Below, piece by piece: positions 38,961 to 62,145 of a stretch of DNA of 64,000 nt. This DNA comes from Nitrososphaerales archaeon. GTDB taxonomy: Archaea > Thermoproteota > Nitrososphaeria > Nitrososphaerales > Gagatemarchaeaceae. A program made the translations under genes and the position numbers. Position 1 is the first letter of the stretch, and each line of letters opens with the position of its first letter. The notes beneath the pieces were generated by a model. That model made no database searches. It saw nothing but the letters and a program-made list of their open reading frames with translations, and was not told the origin of the DNA. The stretch is from positions 310,001-374,000 of the forward strand of contig JAJTZB010000001.1 of the NCBI GenBank assembly GCA_032906765.1, read 5' to 3'.

Positions 38961-39052
38961 TGGGGCCGGCCGGATTTGAACCGGCGATCGCCAGCGTTCT
39001 GGACAAAGCGTTCCCCAGGCTGGTATCCTAGACCAAACTGGACGACGGCCCC
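38961..39052 (-). tRNA. tRNA-Pro (GGG anticodon) with a 16-base intron
   Basis: On the minus strand the acceptor stem GGGGCCG/CGGCCCC, D arm GTCC/GGAT, anticodon stem CCAGC/GCTGG and T arm GCCGG-TTCAAAT-CCGGC all pair. The anticodon loop starts CTGGGGA (anticodon GGG) but is 23 bases long. The extra 16 bases fit an archaeal intron at the canonical 37/38 region. CTGG in the loop can pair with CCAG inside the intron, as in a bulge-helix-bulge. The discriminator is A; CCA is not encoded. Confidence 0.9.
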
Positions 39053-60130: not shown

Positions 60131-60235
60131 CGCCCAGGCCGGGATTTTCGTCGCGCGGATTTCGAACCCGGGTCACTGGCGTGACAGGCCAGCATACTGG
60201 ACCATTGTACGGATGACCCTCTATACGACCTGGGC
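60131..60235 (-). tRNA. tRNA-Asp (GTC anticodon) interrupted by two 16-base introns
   Basis: On the minus strand the acceptor GCCCAGG/CCTGGGC, anticodon stem CTGGC/GCCAG around CTGTCAC (anticodon GTC), and T stem CCGGG/CCCGG pair fully; the discriminator is G, as expected for Asp. The D loop has 25 bases instead of about 9, and the T loop 23 instead of 7, so each holds about 16 extra bases. The total is 105 instead of 73. CCA is not encoded. Non-canonical introns of this kind are known in Thermoproteota and Thaumarchaeota tRNAs. Confidence 0.88.
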
Positions 60236-60501
60236 GTCGATGGTTCTGACCCCGCGAGGGTGTTTTAAGTTTACATTCGCACCTTCTACTTTTCAGACCA
60301 GAACCGTTGCTTGGGAGACAATACGCATGGCTGGACCACACACCTAGCCCAGGACAAGTGAAGGTCGTGAGGAAACAAGCCCTGCCACAGATTCCTGGCT
60401 AGGGATAATGCGAAGTCACGTGGTCATCGCAAACATCGATCTGAAGCTACGTCTCATGGTATTCGAGGCGTCGCGTCAGCTTTCATGATTCTGTTCGTGG
60501 C

Positions 60502-62145
60502 TCAACCTTGGCCGGGACGGGCCCATCCCAGCCGCCGGGGAACAAGAAGCAGGACTGAGCCAACCATGCAGCCCAGTAGGACTGCGACTAGAATTGCACT
60601 CGAGGGACTAGCCGCATTGGCAACTGTGATAGTTTGGACACCGGTGATTGTTGCAAGGCGGGTAATCGCTGTGGTCGTGGTTGTTGTTGTCGTGACAGGA
60701 TCCGTATTGGCAATGGTGATAGTTTGGACGGCGGTGCTTGTTGTAACTCGTGTGATGGCTGTGGTCGTGGTTGTTGTGGTTGTCGTGGCTGGATTGGATT
60801 GCGATGCGGACGTTGCTCCTCCGAAAAGAGTGCCGTTCGGGAAGGTCAGGGGGTAATGGTCGGAGACGAATGGCCCCGGTAGCTGCAGCGGAGGTCCCGG
60901 AGACTGCGAGAAGTCGAAGGCTTCCATCAGGTTGTTGGCGGAGGCGTCCCTGCTCGCAAGCGGTGGCAGGGAATAGACTGTCTCGACGAACTTCAAGATG
61001 GATGTGAAGTCGCCCTGCGTGTGGTCGATGTAGCCCTGTTTCACGTAGGGAGATATTATCAGGCAGGGAACCCTGAACCCGTAGCCGAACTGGTCCACCT
61101 GAGGAGGTGGAACATGGTCGTACCATCCTCCCCAGTCGTCCCACGTCAAGAAGATGGCCGTCGAGTTCCAATAAGGACTGGCCATCACGGAGTTGATAAT
61201 CGACACCACGTCTTGTTCCCCACTGGAAATATCGTAGGGTGGGTGCTCACTCTCCTCGTCAGTTGCTGGCATTATCCAGGAAACACCTGGAAGCTTGTGG
61301 TCCGCTACATCTGTGGCGAATTGTCCGGGGGGAGCGAGATTCCGCATCCTTGCTTGATTGCTCTTGAATGATGCGAAACCGGGCAGCGGGTTCCAGTTGT
61401 TCAGATAGTAATAGCCCCCAGCGTAGTACTTCCAAGTGATGTGACTGGCGTCGAGCTCATCCACTATCGACTTGAAGTAGAACGTGTTGTCGTGTACATT
61501 GCTTGAGGTGAAGTTGATGAAACCAGCGTTAGCACTACCAACCAAACCGCCCGACTGTCCAGCGATCAGATAGAGGTGATTGGGGAGGCTCGCCGTCATG
61601 ACCGGGGTGTAGAAGTTGTCGAGCAGGACGAACTGAGACGCGTAATCCCAGTAGTAGGGAATGAGCGAGGGGTTGAAGTGACCCATGGTCAGATTCGAGT
61701 TGGACGCAGTCACAAAGCCGTCCATGCTCCCGTTGTCGTAGGCTTGATGGGCGCACGTCCAGTCGTGGCAGAGGTCGTGGGCAATAGTCGTGGTATTGAT
61801 CATGAACGGCTTGACGAGCTTCGCGGTCGTGGAGTTATTCGTCGATGGTTGAGGCGTCGCGCCTGCGATTCCGTTCGCCCCTGGGTATGTACCGAAGTAG
61901 TTGTCGAAGGTGTGGTTCTCCTCGACTATGATGACTACGTGCTGAATTGGAGGCTTGCCGGGCACCCCGCCAACTGAGAGCGGAAACGACGAGATGATCA
62001 AGAGGAACGACAAAGTGACTACGAGCATGCCCTGAACGATGGGGCTCCCAGGGGCTGACTTGCGCAAAGGAACGTCGGAACGATCTGGGCTTCCTGCTCG
62101 AAATGCATTGCGGAGCGCGAATACAGATTTCAGGACTAGATTCAA
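60502..62145 (-). CDS. surface-anchored phosphoesterase (phospholipase C/acid phosphatase family)
   Basis: 547 residues. A signal segment (about 38-60), then the alkaline-phosphatase-like phosphoesterase domain: HVVIIVEENHTFDNYFGTYP, MTASLPNHLYLIAGQSGG, LPGVSWIMPATDEESEHPP, and FLTWDDWGGWYDHVPPP with RVPCLIISPYV. It hydrolyses phosphate esters outside the cell. Two 30-residue Thr-rich repeats (about 455-515) and a C-terminal membrane segment (AILVAVLLGCMVGSVLLLV) with basic tail anchor it. Its start overlaps the small gene upstream by four bases. Confidence 0.92.
   Translation of the reverse strand: MNLVLKSVFALRNAFRAGSPDRSDVPLRKSAPGSPIVQGMLVVTLSFLLIISSFPLSVGGVPGKPPIQHVVIIVEENHTFDNYFGTYPGANGIAGATPQPSTNNSTTAKLVKPFMINTTTIAHDLCHDWTCAHQAYDNGSMDGFVTASNSNLTMGHFNPSLIPYYWDYASQFVLLDNFYTPVMTASLPNHLYLIAGQSGGLVGSANAGFINFTSSNVHDNTFYFKSIVDELDASHITWKYYAGGYYYLNNWNPLPGFASFKSNQARMRNLAPPGQFATDVADHKLPGVSWIMPATDEESEHPPYDISSGEQDVVSIINSVMASPYWNSTAIFLTWDDWGGWYDHVPPPQVDQFGYGFRVPCLIISPYVKQGYIDHTQGDFTSILKFVETVYSLPPLASRDASANNLMEAFDFSQSPGPPLQLPGPFVSDHYPLTFPNGTLFGGATSASQSNPATTTTTTTTTAITRVTTSTAVQTITIANTDPVTTTTTTTTAITRLATITGVQTITVANAASPSSAILVAVLLGCMVGSVLLLVPRRLGWARPGQG
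60617..60796 (-). repeat. 90-bp tandem repeat encoding the Thr-rich stalk
   Basis: Two units spaced exactly 90 bases (60617 and 60707) begin TTGGCAA and share GTGATAGTTTGGAC and GGTCGTGGTTGTTGT on the plus strand. They encode TTTTTTTTAITR...VQTIT units of 30 residues. The stalk may vary in length between strains. Confidence 0.7.

Follow-up and report, generated by a model that had tools for sequence, protein, structure and literature searches.

A putative functional tRNA-Asp(GTC) gene with bulge-helix-bulge introns in both the D loop and the T loop in a Gagatemarchaeaceae genome

The window, i.e. the whole stretch of 64,000 nucleotides that was analysed, belongs to a Nitrososphaerales genome of 1.77 Mb in 13 contigs that is 95.6 % complete. 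On its minus strand lies a tRNA-Asp(GTC) gene interrupted by 16 nt in the D loop and by 16 nt in the T loop. The gene was dissected with a resolver written for this analysis, which strips candidate introns and then scores the product, and both junctions were searched for the bulge-helix-bulge (BHB) motif. The features are as follows.

60131..60235, minus strand: tRNA-Asp(GTC) gene, unspliced, 105 nt; mature form 73 nt, no encoded CCA
60221..60235, minus strand: exon 1, positions 1-15 (coordinates derived from resolver output)
60205..60220, minus strand: D-loop intron, 16 nt, site 15/16; strict BHB with central helix GUAU/GUAC
60161..60204, minus strand: exon 2, positions 16-59; anticodon GTC at 60184-60186, anticodon loop unbroken
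60145..60160, minus strand: T-loop intron, 16 nt, site 59/60; strict BHB with central helix UUCG/CGAA
60131..60144, minus strand: exon 3, positions 60-73 (from the resolver)
60263..60268, minus strand: TATA-like TTAAAA, -33..-28 from the mature 5' end of the tRNA

The D-loop intron, AGGGTCATCCGTACAA, is located between positions 15 and 16 and the T-loop intron, ATCCGCGCGACGAAAA, between positions 59 and 60. Both have a 4-bp central helix with a 3-nt bulge on each of the opposite strands. BHB motif search and resolver gave AGA and AAU as the bulges of the D-loop intron and AAA and AAU as those of the T-loop intron, the outer helix of which is the T stem. In the spliced 73-nt molecule, the resolver found all pairs of the acceptor (7/7), D (4/4), anticodon (5/5), and T stems (5/5), 15 of the 15 conserved-position points and exons without defect. 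ARAGORN identified this spliced sequence as tRNA-Asp(gtc), which shows that excision restores a canonical tRNA, while no call was made on the unspliced sequence. Across the window, the locus was called neither by ARAGORN nor by Rfam cmscan at the gathering score. These results bear out the original prediction that the gene folds as tRNA-Asp(GTC) only upon removal of about 16 nt each from the D and T loops and that the anticodon loop is free of insertions; the BHB motifs for which it proposed to look are present at both sites, in the strict form. Its coordinates, 60131-60235, were exact, and the strand, which it did not give, is minus.

The only tRNA called in the window by ARAGORN and Rfam is a tRNA-Pro(GGG) at 39052-38961. 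This gene (38961-39052 of the window, minus strand) carries a canonical BHB intron of 16 nt at 37/38. The TTAAAA sequence in front of the tRNA-Asp gene coincides with the A+T peak (-32..-28) seen upstream of 29 tRNA genes of the same genome. The adjoining upstream gene, at 60502-62145 on the minus strand, encodes a protein of 547 aa with a signal-like start and a Thr-rich linker near its C-terminus; presumably, it resembles a secreted phosphoesterase.

Among 10 own-genome matches to the tRNA-Asp model R1, the window gene scored best (82.7 bits), ahead of tRNA-Glu(CTC) and the remaining hits. The other intact tRNA-Asp(GTC) gene that the original prediction had put forward as a sign of decay at this locus was not found in the genome: no second tRNA-Asp was present among the 10 model hits or the 36 Rfam tRNA hits (a few isotypes of which were assigned by eye), nor was one found by a pattern search. 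The gene probably specifies the cell's only aspartate tRNA. A second pattern match, with two mismatches (C13:16468, L229), was rejected as a tRNA; judged by eye, it is located inside an IS200/IS605-like transposase frame.

The presence of two non-canonical introns in one tRNA, originally regarded as unusual, is not odd for this host, in which at least 12 of the 37 tRNA loci examined require a non-canonical intron. This number is a lower bound since about 9 of the 37 loci were poorly or not resolved; the resolver also set the wrong anticodon register for three tRNA-Ala loci. The survey, which covered the 37 loci plus C8:22586-22715 and C6:118239-118388, placed non-canonical introns at 22/23 and 27/28 in tRNA-Thr, at 28/29 in tRNA-Val, and, next to a 37/38 intron, at 29/30 in tRNA-Pro(CGG). 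Variable-region introns were observed in tRNAs for Ala and Arg. The best fit for tRNA-Gly(GCC) contains three introns, one of them relaxed, and another tRNA, with the triplet CAT, also has an intron at 59/60.

The genome specifies two dissimilar PF01974 proteins, one of 183 aa (contig C10) and one of 185 aa (contig C3), and contains one RtcB gene. The catalytic residues of the splicing endonuclease are Tyr, His, and Lys. These are all aligned in the match of the 183-aa protein with 3p1z_B (E 6e-43), which we take to be EndA of A. pernix. The 185-aa protein matches 1a79 (E 2e-25), presumably EndA of M. jannaschii, and carries Ala in place of the His residue. The two paralogues, of which only one has the Tyr/His/Lys triad, correspond to an (alpha-beta)2 enzyme and differ in the way in which a catalytic subunit would be expected to differ from a structural one. 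The heterotetrameric endonuclease to which the original prediction had looked for support would thus have both of its dissimilar subunit genes in this genome. Lys44 of the A. pernix chain, which may be its loop lysine, also has a Lys as its counterpart in the alignment. According to PMC6379350, the Crenarchaea-specific loop and its Lys are tied to broad specificity, and a review lists Thaumarchaeota among the alpha2-beta2 endonuclease types (PMC4090602).

The genome was compared with the others of its family (46 genomes in the set), which, judging from names and sequences, is most likely the Gagatemarchaeaceae (Thaumarchaeota Group I.1c). The tRNA-Asp sequences of family genomes G209 and G204 are those on contigs named SubAcS15-15 and AcS1-27, and these names are listed under Subgagatemarchaeum and Gagatemarchaeum in PMC10640624. 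Using two sequence patterns and a covariance model, 33 tRNA-Asp genes were gathered from 31 of the 46 genomes. No tRNA-Asp was found in the other 15, of which 8 are less than 75 % complete. Two copies each are present in G169 (L204, L205) and G233 (L212, L213), all four with anticodon-loop and T-loop introns; G169 is rated 100 % complete, and contamination or duplication is a possible source of the second copy.

The T-loop intron at 59/60 is present in all 33 genes, a D-loop intron in 9, and an anticodon-loop intron in 26. The combination of D and T introns, as in the window gene, occurs in 7 genes, that of D, anticodon, and T introns in 2 (G210 and G227), and that of anticodon and T introns in 24. 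A T intron on its own was found in none of the 33 genes, as each of them also has a D intron, an anticodon intron, or both. D inserts similar to that of the window gene are present in G202, G204, G206, G209, G210, G227, G235, and G236. In homologues that have no D intron (e.g., G203 and G207), the D loop is exactly the spliced sequence. The T introns of the family range from 15 to 34 nt and the D introns from 15 to 19 nt (3 of the 9 measured by eye). As these lengths vary, the equal length of the two introns of the window gene, which the original prediction considered worthy of note, is incidental; the median length of archaeal tRNA introns is 15 nt (Chan 2011, PMC3218864). The central helix of the D intron is GTAT/GTAC in most of the family genes. 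A G-G mismatch in this helix in G235 and G236 and a U-U mismatch in the T helix of G209 mean that a relaxed BHB is needed in some relatives. In tRNA-Glu(TTC) of the family members L225, L226, L228, L230, L234, and L235, a D-loop insert was seen by eye directly after GTATAG, as in tRNA-Asp. The introns of these sister tRNAs may be related.

When named genome contigs were scanned for tRNA-Asp genes bearing an insert in the T loop, 63 stretches were obtained, two of which were counted as misses: L113, which is bacterial and not a tRNA-Asp, and L069, in which the BHB is one base off (58/59). The predicted intron segment can form 4/4 pairs with the exon sequence TTCR in 42 of the 63 stretches, 3/4 pairs in 19, and 1 pair in 2. 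With shuffled introns, 4/4 pairing was obtained in 1.5 stretches on average, with a maximum of 6, and at other offsets in 0 to 4. Covariation was seen between base 57 (A or G) and the intron base with which it pairs (T or C): A-T was found 28 times, G-C 15 times, G-T 4 times, and A-C 0 times (Fisher p 5e-9 for the 47 of 63 rows in which these bases occur, kinship ignored). The T-loop intron of tRNA-Asp was also observed on contigs of Lokiarchaeota, Helarchaeota, Woesearchaeota, Nanohaloarchaea, Micrarchaeota, and Aenigmarchaeota. The originally claimed restriction to some Thermoproteota and relatives therefore does not hold for the T-loop intron, which Asgard and DPANN archaea share; the pair of introns at 15/16 and 59/60 was seen only in Nitrososphaeria/Thaumarchaeota contigs. 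Outside the family, this pair is present on the Thaumarchaeota contigs L093, L107, and L120, in which the D stem is GTGT and a segment of the intron matches as GCAC. In a phylum sample, 4 of 21 matched tRNA-Asp-like genes contain the T insert and 17 lack it, so the T intron can be lost or absent. Since the phylum pattern matched only 21 of 299 genomes and a class-wide pattern requiring CCTGTCAC only 10 of 200, neither of them gives a prevalence.

Taken together, the data argue, at a probability of roughly 0.93, that this mesophilic soil thaumarchaeon has a functional tRNA-Asp(GTC) gene in a single copy, the precursor of which carries two short BHB introns and is spliced to 73 nt. We infer from sequence that the gene is transcribed, that the endonuclease subunits assemble, and that the precursor is cleaved and ligated. 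The heterotetrameric (alpha-beta)2 splicing endonuclease would cleave within both 3-nt bulges of each BHB, RtcB would join the exons to the 73-nt tRNA, and CCA would be added to the spliced molecule.

A rather unlikely addition to this explanation is that at least one of the introns is selectively retained, for example because integrases that target the 3' ends of tRNA genes are blocked by a broken T arm, or because the elbow of the precursor cannot fold prior to splicing. Selection would then keep the tRNA-Asp of Gagatemarchaeaceae from ever having fewer than two introns, e.g., as a lock on the D-loop/T-loop elbow or on the 3'-half integration site until splicing. A shield against integration has already been proposed by Randau and Soell (cited in PMC4033280), and the T intron in 33/33 family genes, each with a D and/or anticodon intron besides, is in line with retention by selection. 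However, the family genomes are related and the counts ignore kinship, and the T insert is missing from 17 of the 21 tRNA-Asp-like genes in the phylum sample.

That the locus is a decayed copy, with another intact gene doing the work, is highly improbable. Although the standard tRNA finders miss the gene, the 95.6 % complete assembly yielded no other tRNA-Asp, the exons are intact, and relatives carry the same inserts. An even smaller chance is given to a tRNA that keeps its inserts and functions with enlarged D and T loops. The inserts break the region in which the D and T loops make contact, the T insert is free in length (15-34 nt) whereas the exons and the exon pairing are constant, and homologues without a D intron show the spliced form; these observations outweigh the indirect nature of the case for splicing of this tRNA-Asp, on which the enlarged-loop explanation leans.

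Random 16-mers were placed at the two sites, with a strict BHB, an inner helix of 2 bp or more, and G-U pairs allowed. Both BHBs arose in 5e-6 of 200,000 trials, i.e., in about one trial; the single-site rates were 0.4 % (D) and 0.5 % (T), with a product of 2e-5. Chance insertions of 16 nt or sequencing errors that happen to permit the drawing of a BHB are a negligible explanation, which the homologues refute. When G-U pairs count, a strict 4-bp helix taken singly is a weak motif, as these rates show, but both together come to about 1e-5 and the inserts are conserved in other family genomes. As sequence evidence, the homologues are stronger than the random-insert test. Single-sequence energy folding of the precursor did not recover the BHB cloverleaf. 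The minimum-energy fold of the naked precursor has -44.8 kcal/mol versus -29.3 for the BHB cloverleaf, a gap of about 15 kcal/mol that disfavours the latter. In this fold, GGGUCA of the D intron pairs with UGACCC, which is part of the variable/T-stem region. A regulatory switch operating through this alternative pairing was considered and dropped because the pairing is not kept in family genome G202.

The tRNA-Asp gene is an example of a gene that is missed by general-purpose tRNA finders. The family series, in which a D intron, an anticodon intron, or both come on top of a fixed T intron, is suited for tests of the neutrality of tRNA introns. The lead of more weight is that every tRNA-Asp found in the family has at least two introns. 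The word "intron" does not occur in the main text of PMC10640624. No discussion of tRNA introns in Gagatemarchaeaceae was found in the literature searched, which is weak evidence as most subscription journals were outside its scope.

The Thermoproteales with multiple-intron tRNAs are hyperthermophiles, and the gene described here adds a mesophilic soil lineage to the Thermoproteales-like interruption of tRNAs. Growth optima of 36-41 C are predicted for Gagatemarchaeaceae in a portion of the table in PMC10640624. Like the window gene, genes of Thermoproteales carry several short non-canonical BHB introns, e.g., at 25/26, 37/38, and 56/57 in tRNA-Pro(UGG) of Pyrobaculum islandicum (PMC4090602), although isotype and sites differ from those of the tRNA-Asp. 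PMC4090602 also describes the site 59/60 as well as genes in which two non-canonical introns accompany the canonical one. Up to three introns per tRNA gene are known, and Pyrobaculum calidifontis has 71 introns in 46 genes (PMC8450103). The same source reports multiple non-canonical tRNA introns in Crenarchaeota and Thaumarchaeota; the Thaumarchaeota, the wider lineage of the window, account for 107 non-canonical introns in its tRNAscan-SE 2.0 set. In Caldiarchaeum, tRNA introns are present in the D, V, and T arms (PMC3293823). In the Asgard archaea Atabeyarchaeia and Freyarchaeia, most tRNA genes have introns and over half of them have several, which are often non-canonical; these belong to another phylum, however, and a larger share of their tRNA genes, 92-95 %, contains introns (PMC11291895). 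Multiple non-canonical tRNA introns are thus already well documented, also in Thaumarchaeota, and the tRNA-Asp gene is a good new example of them rather than a new phenomenon.
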